Assembly: GCA_944325705.1 (NCBI GenBank)
Contig: CALVBB010000015.1
Span: 1-55,836, forward strand
Direction: 5' to 3'
Length of the DNA: 55,836 nt
From: Candidatus Gastranaerophilales bacterium
Lineage (GTDB): Bacteria; Cyanobacteriota; Vampirovibrionia; Gastranaerophilales; Gastranaerophilaceae
Positions 31,950-52,539 of this stretch are shown here, in pieces. The notes under the pieces were generated by a model. It was not told the DNA's origin and did no database searches. It saw only the letters and a program-made list of their open reading frames with translations. Positions within the stretch are counted from its first letter, which is position 1, and each line of letters opens with the position of its first letter. The position numbers were made by a program, and so were the translations under genes.

Positions 31950-34673
31950 ATGCGTATATCGCCTGTCACAACAGCTTTTCACTCAGGGGGGGGGGGGCTC
32001 AGGAATGAAAAAGCCGGTAAAATCAAGCAAAATAACCTGAATAACAAAACTCAAAAACCGACACTTGTGCATATTTCTTTTACCGGAGTGCCGGGAAAAA
32101 ATGTTCATCAGGGTGTGTCTATTTCTGTCGAGGACAGCTACATCGGACTTGATATGTACAAGTGCGGAGGCGCAGGCGGTGTGGCAGATCAGATGCCTAA
32201 TGCCTTAAACAAAATGGATGGCATGGATTTCAGACATGTTGTTCCGCTTTACAGCTACAACAATCCGAACGGACAGATGAAAGTCCTTGTTATACCGAAA
32301 GACGTTGAATATAACCCGCGTAATCCTGCACCGGAAAACTGGTTTGTCACCTATCCGGAAACTACAACTAAAGAGCAAATAGCCGGCTGGCTTAATACAG
32401 ATATTGCAAGAATAAAATTTGTAGTTCAGGACACCCCTGCAACCCCGAATGATGCAATGCGTAAACTTTACGGGCTTGAAGGTGATTATGCTAATATTAA
32501 AGTTTCAAATTTTAGAGAACTCATTCCAACTGACACAAGAGGAGTTATCCAGAGAATTGATGAAAATGATTTAAGTAAAATTAAATCTATTCCTTACCGC
32601 GTATACCGAATGGTTATACCGCGCAGTGACGGAACTTTAGACGACAAAAGCGTGTATGCTATCCATACTCCGGATTTAGCAAAATTTCAGAAGGCTTACA
32701 CATATTCACCGGAATTAAAAGACCACCCGCATGTGAACCTATTTACACGTGACTTTGGCGATGCTGCTGCAGATATGCTGCCAAAATTAAATACGGCAGA
32801 ACACGGAAACTTTAATCCTGCAAACGTAATTGCACACTGCAGGACAGGTTTTCCTATAACAGAATCCATAATTAACCGCTCGGTTACACTGCCGTATTAC
32901 AGAGGGTTCAAGATTATTGATATATTCCACAACCCTATGCCTGACTATCAGGGAACTGTCGGCAACCCTATGGACTTTTTAAGATATAAAGCCACCGTAA
33001 GTGATTACATGAAACTTTCGCAGATGCCGGAGTTTCCTGAACTTATGGCTCTTGACAAACACAGATATAATCTTTCGGAAAGTGAAGCTGCCCTTGTTGA
33101 TAGAATTATAAAACCGTTCCTCCAGCACTACGTTGATGATAACGGAAACTACAATCAGTCAATCACTCCTCTGATTGCTCGGAAACTCAACCCTGATAAC
33201 GTATCGGTAAACCATGTTTCACACACTTTTGCAAACGAAGTTATCAAATATAACGACATGGCAAGAGGTTTGACATCACTATTCAGGGAAGCAGAAGCTG
33301 AAGGCGACAAAATTCCGGGCAGACCGAACGGATGTAACATCGATTTTATGCAGATTAACAACCCGAAAGCAACAATGGGCAAACATAACGGTCTCTCTGT
33401 AGATATGAGCTGGTACACTCCGTACGATCCGGCAAAAGATTCCGCTGAAACAATCGTTGCCGCAAAAAGAAAAAATACAGAAGCCTTCTTGAATATGGTA
33501 GGTGAAGCAACCGAAAAACGTCTTGATAAAATTGGAGATTACACAAATGCAAGCGTTGACGATGCGCTTAATCAGCTTTTCTATTCAAAAGATCTAATAG
33601 AAAAGAAAAGATACGTTCTGGGCGGACTTTCAAAATTTGATCCTAAAGATATTCTTTTAATGGGCTGGGGGCGTTCTGACGCGCAAAAAGGTTATCCTAT
33701 TACATTACAGGGATTTTTGAAATTCTTAGAGCGTCCGAACGTTCCGAAAGAATGGAAAAAACATTTTAAAGTTGCACTTGGAAGCGGCCCTGACCCTTGG
33801 GAAATGGACGACAGAGGCGGCGGTGATTTCCACAGAATAAAAGATACAATGTATAAAATCCAGCAGCTTGACGGAGGTGCATACAAAACAAATTGTATGT
33901 ACGGCAACGGCTTCTTCCCTAACCGTCTTGTAACATGTGCTACTTACGGTATCTTCACTTCAAGAGGCGAGCCGCAGGGGCTTTCAGTTCCGGAATCTAT
34001 CCAGTCAGGCACCCCTACAGCTTCATTAAACACAGGCGGAGCCGGCGAAATGATTATTACAGCAGGTGAAAATGCTGAAAAAGCCAACGGCTTCAAAACT
34101 ACAGATGCTTTTATGCGAAATGTTGAGAACTTAGGCTGGCCGGAAGGCACTGACATTTCCAAACTCAGCGGTGAACAAATCGACAGCAGACGAATAGAAC
34201 TTGCCGCCGAACAGGTTGCTGATATGTTTGAGGATATGGCACGAACTTACTATGAAGAACCTGAATTGTACGCCAGAATGGCTGAAAATGGCGGACGGGC
34301 AAAATTCGACTGGCATAACAACAATGTACTTAACGCAGGGCGTTCAACCCTGCAGTTGTACACCGAGGACGGCATGGAAATTCCAAAAGGCTGGGAAGGA
34401 AGAAATAAAAATCCAATGCAGCGTCTTGTCGGCGAGTTCGGCGGTAAATTTGAAAAACTTAAACGGGCAGCCAGAACTGTTATTGAAGAAACAGTCGACA
34501 ACGCGCAGGAAACAATTACAAAACCTTCCGGTTCAAAATGGCAAAAAGTTGGTGCCTACATTGCACTTGGAGCTGTTGCTGTTTTAGGCGGCGGAATATA
34601 TATTTACAAGCGCAGCCGGACACAAAATGCCGACAATACAGCGCAGCACAGAAAATATGACAGAGCAGCTTAA
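31950..34673 (+). CDS. Large GT-B glycosyltransferase (starch-synthase-like), poly-G phase-variable, ON here
   Basis: 907 residues. Codon 13 onward is a run of 12 G (31986-31997), encoding four Gly; with 12 G the frame continues, so the gene is in frame here. After an N-terminal region ending HISFTG, a GT-B fold follows: GGAGGVADQMPNALNKM (cf. KxGGL of glycogen/starch synthases), a distal acceptor half, LLMGWGRSDAQKGYPITLQGFLKFL (typical C-domain start), and EPQGLSVPESIQSGTPTASLNTGGAGEMI, the E-x7-E sugar-nucleotide motif. A single helix near 875-893 (GAYIALGAVAVLGGGIYIYK) anchors the C-terminus. The catalytic domain is more divergent than GlgA, so the product could be a surface glycan rather than glycogen. 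Confidence 0.8.
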   Translation: MRISPVTTAFHSGGGGLRNEKAGKIKQNNLNNKTQKPTLVHISFTGVPGKNVHQGVSISVEDSYIGLDMYKCGGAGGVADQMPNALNKMDGMDFRHVVPLYSYNNPNGQMKVLVIPKDVEYNPRNPAPENWFVTYPETTTKEQIAGWLNTDIARIKFVVQDTPATPNDAMRKLYGLEGDYANIKVSNFRELIPTDTRGVIQRIDENDLSKIKSIPYRVYRMVIPRSDGTLDDKSVYAIHTPDLAKFQKAYTYSPELKDHPHVNLFTRDFGDAAADMLPKLNTAEHGNFNPANVIAHCRTGFPITESIINRSVTLPYYRGFKIIDIFHNPMPDYQGTVGNPMDFLRYKATVSDYMKLSQMPEFPELMALDKHRYNLSESEAALVDRIIKPFLQHYVDDNGNYNQSITPLIARKLNPDNVSVNHVSHTFANEVIKYNDMARGLTSLFREAEAEGDKIPGRPNGCNIDFMQINNPKATMGKHNGLSVDMSWYTPYDPAKDSAETIVAAKRKNTEAFLNMVGEATEKRLDKIGDYTNASVDDALNQLFYSKDLIEKKRYVLGGLSKFDPKDILLMGWGRSDAQKGYPITLQGFLKFLERPNVPKEWKKHFKVALGSGPDPWEMDDRGGGDFHRIKDTMYKIQQLDGGAYKTNCMYGNGFFPNRLVTCATYGIFTSRGEPQGLSVPESIQSGTPTASLNTGGAGEMIITAGENAEKANGFKTTDAFMRNVENLGWPEGTDISKLSGEQIDSRRIELAAEQVADMFEDMARTYYEEPELYARMAENGGRAKFDWHNNNVLNAGRSTLQLYTEDGMEIPKGWEGRNKNPMQRLVGEFGGKFEKLKRAARTVIEETVDNAQETITKPSGSKWQKVGAYIALGAVAVLGGGIYIYKRSRTQNADNTAQHRKYDRAA

Positions 34674-35198: not shown

Positions 35199-35226
35199 AA
35201 AAGAGGACATAAAGTCCTCTTTTATT
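35199..35226. terminator. Terminator after tRNA-Lys
   Basis: AAAAGAGGAC and GTCCTCTTTT form a 10-bp stem with a 5-base loop and a T-rich 3' side. It also lies at the end of the convergent DUF1796 gene. Confidence 0.85.
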
Positions 35227-35927
35227 TTATAATTTCAGACAAAATATCCCCGTTAAAATTTTGCGCGAACCAGCCGAAATTACCTAACCAGCCATTATTA
35301 TATTCTTTTGTTATATCATACTCATAATAGCATATTTCTTCATTTATTCCTGTTAAATCAATCTTTTTTACATTATCATGTACAAAATTTAAAACATAAA
35401 ACTTAAAGGGTTTATTTTTTCTTAGTTTAGCAAGCGCATTATACACTCTATTTAAACCATCAATGGTAAAATTATTTTGCTCACAGTTAAAAATATATTT
35501 CTTAAAGGATTTTTGTGATGAAACTTCTTTGAAATTATCTATACGCTTTTTATAACGGCTTTTAAACTCTTCAAGTGATAAACCTTCTTCATGAGGAAAG
35601 CACATAGAGTATTTTTTATTTATAAAAGATTTTCCTTTTTCCATATACTCAATATCATCCAGAAAATCTTCAAAATCAGTTTCAAGTATCGCCGCAAGAG
35701 CCTCAAGCGGAGTTACACATAAATCAAACGGACAGCTTAACTCACCATCTTTTTTATAAGATTTCATGTGAAATTTTGTAAAGACCATACGGACAAAACA
35801 GTTATAACCCAGGGAAACATAAAAGTTCTTTTTAGCCGGCAGATGATAGGATATTTTTACCCCCCCCCCCCCCCGGGATTCTTATAGTTATTTTATGCCC
35901 TATTTGCCTGTAATCAAACAACTTCAT
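35222..35927 (-). CDS. DUF1796 (papain-like) family protein, poly-G phase-variable, OFF here
   Basis: From ATG 35927 (GGGAGG ribosome site) the first 17 codons read MKLFDYRQIGHKITIRI and enter a run of 15 G (plus-strand C at 35860-35874). With 15 G the frame stops 13 codons later at GGC-TAA. With 14 or 17 G it would continue as GVKISYHLPAKKNFYVSLGYNCFVRMV into the open frame to 35222, about 234 residues in all. The restored segment supplies VSLGYNC, which with CPFDLCVTPLEAL is the signature of the DUF1796 putative cysteine-peptidase family, so the upstream part is truly coding. A shortened protein could start at ATG 35788 but would lack the Cys motif. Confidence 0.78.
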
Positions 35928-39884: not shown

Positions 39885-41114
39885 TTATATCATCGACTGA
39901 AACATCCCCGCAAAAAGCTGAAGCATTGCGACTACTATATATGCAACCACAATTCCTATAACTACAGTCAGAGCCGGTTCAAAAGCTTTTGCAAGCGCGT
40001 CGGCAACCATATCAAGCTTTTTGTCAATAGCAATCACAATATCTCTGAACATTGCACCCAGCCGGCCGCTCTGCTCACCAGTTGCAACCATAACATTAAA
40101 TGTCGGAGGAATAAATTCAGTTACCCCGAACGCCTGCGAAAGCGGCTGCCCCTTCGAAATCATTACCTCTATACTCTTTGCCTGATTTTTTATCAAATAA
40201 TTTGAAATAGAACCCGACGCCAGCTCCAAACTGGTAGAAATCGGAACACCGGCTTCATAGGCAACATTCATAACCGCAAAAAATGATGAAAGGTTTACAA
40301 ATCTTGTAAAATCCGAAACTATAGGAATATCTAGCAAAAGTCGGTCAAAAAACCGTTTTACGGAACTCTGCTCCCACACTTTAATAAGTGCCGTAATACC
40401 GGCCGCTAGAAGAATAATAACAAGAATTAAGTTGTGCCTGAGAAAATTACAGGTATCAATAACCCATTTAACAGTAAATGGAACTTCATCCGGCTTTATA
40501 TTTGCTGTATCCACAAGTGTCGGGAATATATAAAACCCGCACAACAAAAATATTGCAATAATAATTATAACAAGACAAATCGGATAAACTGACATACCGA
40601 GGATTTTACCTTTTAAATCATCCTGTTTTTTTAATAAACCGGTCATGCGCCCGAGCGTCTTATCAAGTTCTCCGGAGGTTTCGCCGGACACGCAGAGGCT
40701 AACAAAAACTTCCCCGAAAACTTTTTCATAAGGCCTGACAGCGTCAGCAAAAGTTGAGCCCTGTGCAATCTTTTGCTGCAAATCTTTCGCCAGAAGTTTT
40801 ATCTTAGGCTTATGAGCATGCTCAATAATAACATTCAACGCTTCAATTATTGAAATTCCGGACGAAAGCATTACCTGTAACTCAGAGGTAAAAAATATCT
40901 TCTCATTAAGGCTCAAATGTTTTACCGGAAGCGTCGGACTGTCAGCGGGATTAACTGTTTTCGCGGCAAGCGGATTTTCTTCATAAATATTTGTTGGCAA
41001 AAAGCCGAGTTTTACAACCTTTTCGCGCGCTTCACGCGGACTTTCGGCATCAATGTAGCCGCTTACCTCGTCCATTTTTCCTTTTGTTAACGCTTTATAA
41101 AAAAATTTCTTCAT
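39885..41114 (-). CDS. gspF: Type II secretion / type IV pilus inner-membrane platform protein
   Basis: 409 residues, the usual length of GspF/PilC. After an N-terminal domain (MKKFFYKALTKGKMDEVSGYIDAESPREAR) come two repeated GspF domains, the first containing FFTSELQVMLSSGISIIEAL and GETSGELDKTL, the second FFAVMNVAYEAGVPISTSLELA and ATGEQSGRLGAMF, with membrane segments near 165-190, 215-235 and 370-395. It forms the rotor platform that assembles pilins or pseudopilins under the cytoplasmic ATPase, so it is the machine component for the prepilins in this window. The ATPase and prepilin peptidase are not here. Confidence 0.93.
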   Translation of the reverse strand: MKKFFYKALTKGKMDEVSGYIDAESPREAREKVVKLGFLPTNIYEENPLAAKTVNPADSPTLPVKHLSLNEKIFFTSELQVMLSSGISIIEALNVIIEHAHKPKIKLLAKDLQQKIAQGSTFADAVRPYEKVFGEVFVSLCVSGETSGELDKTLGRMTGLLKKQDDLKGKILGMSVYPICLVIIIIAIFLLCGFYIFPTLVDTANIKPDEVPFTVKWVIDTCNFLRHNLILVIILLAAGITALIKVWEQSSVKRFFDRLLLDIPIVSDFTRFVNLSSFFAVMNVAYEAGVPISTSLELASGSISNYLIKNQAKSIEVMISKGQPLSQAFGVTEFIPPTFNVMVATGEQSGRLGAMFRDIVIAIDKKLDMVADALAKAFEPALTVVIGIVVAYIVVAMLQLFAGMFQSMI

Positions 41115-41321: not shown

Positions 41322-43826
41322 TTATGATTGTGTGACTTCAGTTTCTTCTTTTGTTTTAGTCCGTCTTTTCGGAGCTTTTTCAAAGGTAATCTTATCATCA
41401 ACAAGGGTAATCCTGATTGTATCACCCGGAGCATACTTGCCGGAGAGGATTTCTTCAGCAAGGTTATCCTCAATTTTGCGCTGGATAAGACGTCTAAGCG
41501 GTCTTGCACCGTAAGCTTCCGAGTACCCGTTTTTAGCCAGATGATCTTTAACTTCGTCAGTAACTTCAACGGACAGGTCGCGTTCAGCCAGACGCTTGAA
41601 CAAATCTTTCAGCATCAAATCAACAATCTGCCTTATTTCTTCCTGTGTGAGGTGAGCAAATACAATTGTTTCATCAATACGGTTCAAAAATTCCGGTCTG
41701 AAAGCTTTCTTCATCTCTTCTGTAACAGTTTCTTTGAGTTTTTCGTATTTGTCTTTAGATTCATCGTCGGAAGTTGAGAAGCCTAACCTTGAGGTTGTAG
41801 TAATCATGCTTGCTCCGACATTTGATGTCATAATTATGATTGTATTTTTAAAGTTGATGTGGCGGCCTTTTGAATCTGTAAGACGTCCATCATCAAGTAT
41901 TTGAAGCATGATATTAAATACATCAGGGTGGGCTTTTTCAATTTCATCAAAAAGTACAACCGAGTATGGTTTCTTTCTGATAAGTTCTGTCAAATGTCCG
42001 CCATCGTCATAACCGACATACCCCGGAGGAGAACCGATAAGTTTTGCGGTTGAATGTTTTTCCATAAATTCAGACATATCAACTCTTATCATGTTATCTT
42101 CCGAACCGAATACCGCTTCAGCAAGAGCCTTCGCAAGTTCAGTTTTACCAACGCCGGTAGGCCCGCAGAAGATAAAGCTTCCGATAGGTCTGTTCGGGCT
42201 TTTTAAACCGACTCTTGCACGTCTTATAGCTTTAGCAATCGCAACAACCGCATCATTCTGGCCGATTACACGTGCGTGAAGGGTTTCTTCAAGCTTAAGC
42301 AGTCTTTCGCTCTCGCCTTCAGTGAGTTTTGTAACCGGAATGCCTGTCATTGTAGCTATAACCTCAGCAACATTTTCAGCAGTAACTGTAGGTTTGTTTG
42401 CTTCATGTTCTTCTTTATATTTCTGCGACATTTCACGGATTTTGTCTTTTAAATCAGCTTCATCATCACGCAGCTGGGAAGCCTTTTCAAAATCCTGATT
42501 TCTTATTGCATCTTCTTTTTCTTTAATTAATCCGCGTAATTCCTTCTCAAGTTCTTTACCCTCCGGAGAAAGTGTAGAAACTTTTAGACGGACTTTTGAA
42601 CTTGCTTCATCTATTACGTCGATTGCCTTGTCCGGCAGGAAGCGGTCTGTAATATATTTGTTAGACAATTTAACCGCAGCAACAATAGCTTCATCGGAAA
42701 TAATCAATTTGTGGTGTTCTTCGTATTTAGGTTTAAGCCCTTTGATAATTTCAATTGATTCATCTTCGGTCGGTTCGTCTATTATTACGGACTGGAAACG
42801 TCTTTCAAGAGCCGAGTCTTTTTCAACGTATTTTCTGTACTCATCAAGAGTGGTTGCACCGATAACCTGAATTTCGCCTCTGGAGAGCGCCGGTTTAAGA
42901 ATATTTGCAGCGTCAATGGCACCTTCAGCCGCGCCCGCGCCGATAAGTGTATGCATCTCATCAATTACAAGAATAATATTTCCCGCCTGACGGATTTCGT
43001 CCATAATTTTTTTCAAACGTTCTTCAAACTCACCGCGGTACTTGGTACCTGCAACAAGAAGTCCCATATCAAGCTGAATAACTTTCTTGCCTTCAAGAAT
43101 ATCCGGAACTTCATCGTTAACAATCCGGATGGCAAGTCCTTCGGCAACAGCAGTTTTACCAACACCCGGCTCTCCGATAAGCACAGGATTATTTTTTGTA
43201 CGTCTTGCAAGAATTTGAATAACACGTTCAATTTCTTTTTCTCTGCCTACAACAGGATCAAGCCTCTGCTCCTGAGCTGCAAGCGTCAAATCGCGACCAA
43301 ATTCATCAAGACTAGGAGTTTTGGTTTTTCCGCCAGATGAACTCGAAGAAGATGATGAGCTGGAAGAACCGGAAGCTGTAGTTTGCGGTTTTGTTTCACC
43401 AAGCATTTTAACTACATTGCTTCTAATCTTATTCAAATCAACACCCAGATTTTCAAGAACTCTTGCTGCAACGCCTTCACCTTCTCTGATAAGCCCGAGA
43501 AGAAGATGTTCTGTGCCGATATAATTATGCCCTAACTGCCTTGCTTCATCCCATGATAATTCAAGAACTCTTTTTGCCCTCGGGGTGAAAGGAATTTCAA
43601 CAGCAACAAAACCTGAGCCCCGTCCGATAATTTTTTCAACCTCAGCTCTGGCATCTTTCAGAGTAACCCCCATTGATTTAAGGGTTTTAGCAGCAACACC
43701 TGTACCTTCGCCAATAAGCCCCAGGAGAACCTGTTCTGTTCCGACAAAATTATGACCGAGTCTGCGTGCTTCTTCCTGAGCCAGCATTATAACTTTTATA
43801 GCTTTCTCCGTAAAACGTTCAAACAT
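41322..43826 (-). CDS. clpC: ATP-dependent Clp protease ATP-binding subunit ClpC
   Basis: 834 residues: double Clp N-domain ([28 protein letters not shown] and a second repeat), a poly-Ser linker near 155-167, AAA+ domain 1 ([33 protein letters not shown]), a UVR-like middle segment ([23 protein letters not shown]), AAA+ domain 2 ([29 protein letters not shown]) and a basic tail. It unfolds proteins for ClpP and assists stress tolerance. The UVR segment marks it as ClpC rather than ClpA or ClpB, a type found in Firmicutes and the cyanobacterial lineage. The poly-Ser linker is unusual in length. Confidence 0.96.
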
Positions 43827-43979
43827 TAATTAGCTCCTATACTCTCTTATATATATATTTTACATAAAAAACAAAAATCTTTCAAGGGGGTAGCAGTATA
43901 TTTAAAAGTATTGAAAAATGCCGAAAAATATTGTAAAATAAAAATGTAGTTTATTTAACAAAAGAAAGGGATAGAATAG

Positions 43980-44799
43980 ATGAAAACCATTGGTATGACT
44001 GAAATACACTCAGGGGGGGGGGGGATTTAATACCGGCAGACTTTCCAGCTCTTTTGGATTATCCGGATTTAATAAATATTCAACTCATACGATAGCAGGA
44101 TTTACACTCGCAGAGGTTTTGATAACACTTGGGATTATAGGTATCGTTGCAGCCATGACTATGCCGGCACTTATGGCAAAACACCGCAGAGAAGTTTTAA
44201 AAACCGAATTTAAAAAGACATACAGCGAATTACAACAGATAAACTTATCATTTATAAAAGATGAGGGTCTTAATATGTGTGAATATAACTGGATGCTTGT
44301 AGACAGCGGACAGGCTCAAATGGATGCTTCTAAAAATACTACAGCAAAAATCGTCAGTTATTATAAGGGAAAAGGTAAAAACCTTTATAATAAATATAAC
44401 AATGATGTTAAAAACTTAACGGGCGGGAAGCCTGATATATACATGTTTGATGACGGTACTATGTGGAATTTTATGAGAAAAACTTTTTATAGTGAATTTG
44501 GTAGTGCAAAAGACAATAAATGCATGGTAATAACCATTGATATAAACGGGTATAACCAGAAACCGAACCAGCTCGGAGTCGACATGTTTTCATTCCGCCC
44601 GACAAAAGACGGCAGAGTAATCACGCTTGGAAACCCTGAAACAAACAAAGATGCAGCTAATGGCAGTAAAGACTTTACTGATTGTTCCATGAAAATAAAC
44701 ACAGAGAAAAACGGTATGGGCTGCGCTTACTGGGCAAGTATAGACGTCAATCCGGATGACAATACTAAAGATTACTGGAACGATTTCATAAAATATTAA
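43980..44799 (+). CDS. Prepilin-like protein, poly-G phase-variable, OFF here
   Basis: ATG 43980 (AAAGAAAGGG upstream) reads MKTIGMTEIHS and then a run of 12 G (44013-44024). With 12 G the frame runs into TAA three codons later. With 11 or 14 G it continues GFNTGRLSSSFGLSGFNKYS, THTIA and straight into the prepilin signal GFTLAEVLITLGIIGIVAAMTM, giving about 273 residues. No good start lies between the tract and the signal, so the present state is a non-producing phase. The head domain contains GVDMFSFRP and ends NPDDNTKDYWNDFIKY, distinct from the 5647/51841 pair. Confidence 0.85.
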
Positions 44800-51561: not shown

Positions 51562-51869
51562 ATGCAAAACACAGTTATAGCTTCAAAACTCAGATGGGGG
51601 GGGGGGGTACATATAGCCTGAATTCCGCTCCGGACAAGGGGTTCTGGGGGACATTCTTAAGAAATATCAGACGGCGCAGTGATTTTTTCAAATCTTTTTC
51701 CTTTACGGACGCTGTTTTTAAGACCATAGTGCAGGAAAATTTTACAAATTTACCGCTGACTAATAATCTTATGAAATCACCACTTGTGAAGATGTCAAGG
51801 CTTGGAAAATTTAAAACCGGAGATGGTGTTCTCGGCTTTAATGCTCCCTTCACTTCTCACTTCAAATAA
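51562..51869 (+). CDS. Poly-G phase-variable leader ORF overlapping a prepilin, OFF here
   Basis: ATG 51562 has a near-perfect ribosome site (AAGGAGG). Eleven codons (MQNTVIASKLR) lead into a run of 12 G (51596-51607). With 12 G the frame stops after WGGGVHIA. With 10 or 13 G it stays open for about 100 residues (TYSLNSAPDKGFWGTFLRNI, then DFFKSFSFTDAVFK, ending GFNAPFTSHFK) and stops at 51869, overlapping the prepilin start at 51841 by 29 bp. It may act by translational coupling, or be a prepilin leader separated from its gene by a second frameshift. Confidence 0.6.
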
Positions 51870-52539
51870 ATCGGCTTTCACTCTCGCAGAAGTTTTAATT
51901 ACTCTCGGCATTATCGGCGTTGTCGCAGCTATGACTCTGCCGACACTTGTTCAGAAAAAGACCAACAGCGAGGTTGAGGCTAAACTGCAAAAGATTTATT
52001 CCGCCATGAATCAGGCAGTTATGCTTTCTGAAATTGATAATGGTCCCAAAGAATACTGGCCGCCATCCTGCACAGAAACAACATGTGAAGAATACTATAA
52101 TAAATACTTTCTAAAATATTTAAAAAACGTTTCGCATAAAGAGTTTAACGGCTACGGCGGATACAATATAGCAATATACTTTACAGACGGTACTCTCTTA
52201 ATTGGAAAGGCTGGATACGACTATTATTTTTTTCCGAATGCAAAGAATTTTGATGAAGAAAGTTTTGGCGTTGGAACTGATGACGGCGGAGTGATAAGAA
52301 ATGACTGCGGTACTGCATATTTTGCATTTAGATTTGCACCATCGTATAAAAATGATAAATTTCATTACCAAAAGGGATTTGAACCATACCGGCACTCATT
52401 AGAAGAAAATACAAAAGAGGCACTTACAGAAGGTCCGTATGGATGTGACCTCAAAAGTACAGCGAAAGTGTTCTGTACTGCATGGATTCAGCTTAACGGC
52501 TGGAAAATTCCTGACGATTATCCGTTTACGGTCAAATAA
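51841..52539 (+). CDS. Type IV prepilin / pseudopilin-like protein
   Basis: 232 residues from ATG 51841: leader MLPSLLTSNKSA, then FTLAEVLITLGIIGVVAAMTLPTL, helix, and a Cys-containing head ending LNGWKIPDDYPF. It is a close paralogue of the 5647 prepilin (MNQA, DNGPKEYW, YYFFPN and KGFEPY blocks shared). A TTG 39 nt upstream is an alternative start. No strong ribosome site precedes ATG 51841, so its translation may depend on the upstream poly-G-controlled frame. Confidence 0.85.
   Translation: MLPSLLTSNKSAFTLAEVLITLGIIGVVAAMTLPTLVQKKTNSEVEAKLQKIYSAMNQAVMLSEIDNGPKEYWPPSCTETTCEEYYNKYFLKYLKNVSHKEFNGYGGYNIAIYFTDGTLLIGKAGYDYYFFPNAKNFDEESFGVGTDDGGVIRNDCGTAYFAFRFAPSYKNDKFHYQKGFEPYRHSLEENTKEALTEGPYGCDLKSTAKVFCTAWIQLNGWKIPDDYPFTVK

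Follow-up and report, generated by a model that had tools for sequence, protein, structure and literature searches.

The length of a G tract just inside the coding start of a type IV prepilin gene sets the reading frame of that gene in the window, by which we mean the whole 55,836-nucleotide stretch of Gastranaerophilales DNA analyzed here. This arrangement is quite likely best explained by slipped-strand phase variation acting on a large set of pilins, most of them OFF, an assessment drawn from sequence comparisons within and between genomes. Slippage was also the mechanism proposed in an earlier reading made without database searches (the sequence-only reading), and it is supported by an intact and conserved prepilin frame, by the varied tract lengths of the orthologs, and by ON/OFF differences of a single G between near-identical loci.

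The putative switch lies on the plus strand, and the prepilin gene that it controls is flanked by clpC (41322 to 43826, minus strand) and a tRNA-Glu gene. A Shine-Dalgarno-like AAGGGA, read from the sequence at 43966 to 43971, is located 8 nt 5' of ATG 43980, which begins the translated leader MKTIGMTEIHS (43980 to 44012), and the 12-G tract occupies positions 44013 to 44024, 33 nt downstream of the ATG. With 12 G, frame 0 continues through ATT and is closed by a TAA (44028 to 44030), giving a translation product of 16 aa, and with 13 G the frame from ATG 43980 ends at 38 aa. With either 11 or 14 G, and only then, this ATG is joined to the prepilin frame (44026 to 44799, assigned from translation and orthologs) and the reading frame extends for 272 aa, passing through GFTLAEVLITLGIIGIVAAMTMP. 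An in-frame TGA at 43996 shuts the prepilin frame upstream, and the sole ATG, GTG, or TTG of that frame before the end of the prepilin motif is a TTG at 44119, inside the motif itself, so the prepilin gene has no other usual start. The sequence-only reading had therefore correctly described the tract and its leader just behind the ATG, the opening of the prepilin frame by 11 or 14 G, and the lack of an alternative start, but had placed the stop three codons past the tract when the TAA is the second codon after it.

The opened frame carries an N-terminal methylation and prepilin peptidase motif, GFTLAEVLITLGIIGIVAAMT (44095 to 44160), and scored above cut-off for both the Pfam N_methyl family (PF07963; E value of 1e-4) and TIGR02532. 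Its product contains a class III prepilin signal, consisting of a G and then an F, an E at +5, and a hydrophobic stretch, and was predicted (mean pLDDT of 82) to form a 53-residue N-terminal helix (residues 3 to 55) followed by a globular part of mixed helices and strands. A profile built from 27 tract-bearing prepilins matched solved type IV pilins across the N-terminal helix, and a Foldseek comparison of the globular part with the PDB returned no match at an E value of 0.001 or less. The genome also encodes PilB/PilT-type pilus ATPases of the T2SSE family. Outside the switch itself, nearby assembly machinery is represented by a gene for a T2SSF or PilC-like inner-membrane protein of type II secretion or type IV pilus systems (39885 to 41114, minus strand), identified by family match.

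The window contained 23 matches to G8, compared to 0.33 expected from dinucleotide shuffles, and it has four tracts, of 12, 15, 12, and 12 G, each near a gene start. Four tracts of 12 to 15 G within 55.8 kb far exceed chance. Besides the switched prepilin, the genes concerned are a 907-aa gene with weak similarity to glycosyltransferase family 5 (31950 to 34673, plus strand), whose 12-G tract (31986 to 31997) is in frame, or ON, as assembled; an unknown-family gene (35222 to 35927, minus strand), whose 15-G tract near the start (35860 to 35874) is out of frame and opens with one G fewer; and a second prepilin (51562 to 52539, plus strand), whose 12-G tract (51596 to 51607) is also out of frame. 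A one-base change in tract length does not open this second prepilin because there is a further frame break near 51870. The tract of the 907-aa gene begins 36 nt past its ATG and follows a leader ending in HSGGGG, which matches that of the switched prepilin, and the second prepilin has a leader of like kind, MQNTVIASKLRW followed by its 12 G.

The 1.95-Mb genome as a whole contains 74 G tracts of 8 or more and 131 prepilin motifs. When the stretches around the G tracts were read genome-wide, a recurrent layout emerged, in which a Shine-Dalgarno sequence, an ATG, 20 to 36 nt, and 9 to 15 G precede a prepilin, and under strict criteria at least 30 prepilin loci had a tract approximately 20 to 36 nt after the ATG. 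The other tract-headed genes were glycosyltransferase-like (a GT17 gene and the 907-aa GT5-like gene of the window) or unknowns. CTCC(TT), which is complementary to the AAGGAG upstream of the ATG, was common after the tract at many loci. A hairpin between these two elements was considered and rejected, their complementarity being barely above that of cross-genome shuffles and equal to that of within-genome shuffles.

We searched for the pattern AGGAG-N4-10-ATG-N20-36-G9 in genomes of the phylum, using the reversed pattern as a control. By hand count, 66 of the 132 genomes sampled from the family (Gastranaerophilales metagenome-assembled genomes [MAGs]) contained it, as did 5 of 159 from elsewhere in the phylum, the latter with one or two copies each, and counts for the reversed pattern were near zero. 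When 84,980 species genomes were scanned for G9 closely preceding a prepilin motif, at least 80 loci emerged, and among the matches listed, the named organisms were Gastranaerophilales, Melainabacteria, or Scatousia MAGs, together with two contigs labelled Fusobacterium sp. CAG:439. The tract sequences of G002, a genome from the genus to which the window belongs, coincide, contig coordinates included, with those of the Candidatus Scatousia excrementigallinarum record DVIU01. The ATG-proximal tract architecture is thus nearly restricted to one bacterial family. In a genome from another genus (G025, loci L110 to L116), G tracts were abundant and mostly had no Shine-Dalgarno-bearing start codon ahead of them. 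Phage or mobile origin was also considered and was dropped after no match was found among phage records or viral contigs.

Four orthologs of the window prepilin, 69 to 76% identical to it, were found in other genomes, where they have differing flanks and tracts of their own of 10, 11, 12, or 13 G near the start. Their prepilin frames are intact for at least 230 codons, and dN/dS among the orthologs was 0.07 to 0.16 where dS was unsaturated. The gene is therefore not decaying; decay of the prepilin behind a fixed 12 G was what the sequence-only reading had named as speaking against switching. The same reading had named a spread of lengths, with intact frames in some related genomes, as evidence that would favor switching; the spread (10 to 13 G) and the intact downstream frames were found, but no ON allele of the window gene was present among the five genomes, all of which were OFF by the same +1.

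Alleles that differ in state were found at other loci. We paired the tract genes of G004 and G007, which belong to one genus, by reciprocal best hit. One prepilin pair, 93% identical and near-identical on both sides of the tract, had 11 G and was OFF in one genome and had 12 G and was ON in the other, and a 90% identical pair of GT17 glycosyltransferases was ON with 11 G and OFF with 12 G; other pairs shared the OFF state. Across genomes, state differed in 18 of the 61 pairs with at least 60% identity. This is the pattern that reversible length change, rather than a fixed frameshift, would be expected to leave. In a search for more copies of these two switched loci, the prepilin (L041) was found at full length only in the window's genome and in G004.

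The switch region itself may move between genes. Distant relatives of the switched glycosyltransferase exist without any tract, and in two prepilins whose mature parts are 97% identical (L070 and L330) the tract is followed directly by different sequence. The 5' switch region thus appears to have been added to genes and exchanged between them. Another prepilin pair (L067 and L313; 96% identical) showed about 12.5 nonsynonymous and 2.5 synonymous differences, and in this pair the last G of the tract was replaced by A, with total length and OFF state kept.

We then compared tract length with reading frame at 227 prepilin loci, drawn from about 50 genomes, taking for each the best ATG and the G count that joins it to the motif. 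As assembled, 30 loci were ON, 101 had one G too many, and 96 were one G short. The ON fraction was 13%, whereas independence of length and frame would give 36%, or 81 loci by permutation, where the minimum over 20,000 shuffles was 53. Depletion persisted after the set was thinned to less than 50% protein identity (16 of 133 ON; P = 3e-8 against one third) and was weaker when one locus was taken per genome from the first 150 loci (8 of 47 ON versus 15 expected; mean P of 0.02). At loci that are in frame with 10 G, tracts of 9, 10, and 11 G were seen 16, 9, and 55 times, respectively, and at those in frame with 11 G, tracts of 10, 11, and 12 G were seen 66, 15, and 27 times. These results demonstrate that the length distribution has its dip at the in-frame length and that the depletion of ON is frame specific. 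The sequence-only reading had noted neither this avoidance nor the presence of dozens of such tracts. A single offset prevailed in each genome, with G000 mostly needing one G less and G033 mostly one more; such a dominant offset is unlike plain random switching, and shared descent of the 5' ends together with selection against ON would be needed to account for it.

Under phase variation, the G run would gain or lose a base by slippage during replication. One length class modulo 3 (here 11 and 14) would put the start codon and its short leader in frame with the type IV prepilin, and other lengths would bring translation to an early end, after 16 codons in the case of 12 G. The genome-wide set comprises dozens of paralogous prepilins and some glycosyltransferase-like genes, each with its own ATG-proximal tract, and in the populations captured by metagenome assembly nearly all tracts sit one base from ON. 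With nearly all tracts one base off, a cell probably displays one or a few of its pilins at once and can switch to others. The parts of this explanation that we infer are slippage at replication, the rate of switching, the display of one or few pilins, and the cause of the bias toward OFF. A MutS1 match was found in 59 of the 59 relatives searched and was above the family cut-off in 52, the window's genome included, so slippage rates may be moderate; loss of mismatch repair was accordingly dropped as a cause. The bias toward OFF possibly arises from cost, from immune or phage exposure, or from the faecal origin of the samples. A broader proposal, that the family maintains a frameshift-gated pilin wardrobe with dozens of genes one base off, populations OFF at nearly every pilin, single cells sampling one or a few by slippage, and 5' regions recombining between genes, is one that we regard as somewhat less likely than not. 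In an even stronger form of it, selection would act on the off-by-one state as such, which would be decoded in the RNA.

The strongest rival to phase variation is programmed recoding at the level of RNA or the ribosome. On this view the one-base offset in the DNA is maintained deliberately, and each cell would make all of its prepilins at a low, constant level because RNA polymerase slips, or ribosomes shift frame, at the G run. Such an arrangement would fit the overall depletion of the in-frame length, the +1 offset shared by the five orthologs despite tracts of 10 to 13 G, and the way in which tract length offsets the flank in the window's genome, which has 10 G at loci with one additional base after the tract and 11 or 12 G at the others. 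The direction of the required shift, however, is the same in five of five genomes only at the window locus and is mixed across the family and in other ortholog pairs; since both signs of offset and ON alleles exist, even between near-identical orthologs, no single shift direction serves all loci. Pairing of the Shine-Dalgarno sequence with the sequence after the tract also lacked the covariation that might accompany recoding (5.49 observed versus 5.50 shuffled within genomes), and an analogous tract in Bifidobacterium breve was shown to slip in the DNA (PMC9187656). We therefore regard recoding as unlikely, although bidirectional, low-level RNA slippage may possibly be added onto DNA switching.

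That the tract lengths are assembly or sequencing errors is highly improbable. Short reads cope poorly with long runs of G, and problems of this type are mentioned in the B. breve report (PMC9187656); in the assembly of the window's genome, 8 of the 74 tracts have a contig end no more than 250 nt away, where about 0.8 would be expected. This excess is put down to contigs breaking at repeated 5' sequence or at tracts of mixed length. Sequencing errors arise without regard to frame and cannot alone produce the specific depletion of ON lengths, which was seen in roughly 50 assemblies from different sources. A constant miscall within each assembly could mimic the depletion, but three of the four tracts located mid-gene in the window's assembly (10, 10, and 12 G) are in frame, as is the 12-G tract of the 907-aa gene. 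Least probable of all, by a small step, is that the gene is a frameshifted pseudogene in decay. Although frame 0 is broken and the second window prepilin has an extra frame break, frames of at least 230 codons are intact and under strong purifying selection in four other genomes that have a tract of this kind, and like architecture is repeated at dozens of loci.

Phase variation by tracts of this kind has precedents, which differ from the present case in instructive respects. The tracts of Neisseria, Campylobacter, and Helicobacter are found on varied single genes. As in those organisms (PMC5084427, PMC3068675), homopolymeric G tracts here affect surface and glycosylation genes by one-base frame shifts, but here they belong mainly to one expanded prepilin family with similar 5' switch regions and depleted in-frame lengths. 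The pilin antigenic variation of Neisseria gonorrhoeae (PMC3547852) likewise draws on a large pilin repertoire of which only part is displayed, as would putatively be so here; it operates by gene conversion into one expression locus, whereas each gene here has its own start and switch. The closest documented case is the pilus G-tract switch of B. breve. Two pilus clusters there have a tract in their first gene, G11 and G10, that is a single base away from ON; the ON length occurred in 3% and 6.5% of cells in culture, and ON was enriched tenfold and twofold in mice (PMC9187656). Both B. breve with its relatives and the organism studied here are gut commensals with a run of 10 to 12 G near the start of a pilus gene, and both have a reference genome that is OFF by one base and a second frame without an active start (PMC9187656). 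The B. breve pili are sortase dependent (LPXTG), with one or two clusters per genome (PMC9187656), whereas here type IV prepilins in another phylum carry dozens of independent tracts per genome.

The mechanism is thus already known from Neisseria and Campylobacter and from the pili of B. breve, whereas the lineage, the scale, the bias toward OFF, and the recombining 5' switch region appear new to the literature searched. Among 5.39 million open papers, none joined "Gastranaerophilales" with "phase variation," and the sole paper joining "Melainabacteria" with "phase variation" concerns, by its title and abstract, flagellin diversity; this agrees with the initial statement that no description was known for pilin-like genes of this lineage. 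Gastranaerophilales, relatives of Cyanobacteria that are common in the gut and for the most part uncultured, have a poorly known surface biology. In metagenome assemblies, gene callers will overlook pilins of this type or place their starts at the wrong codons. If true, dozens of independent pilin switches, mostly OFF, would constitute a large phase-variable repertoire in a commensal.
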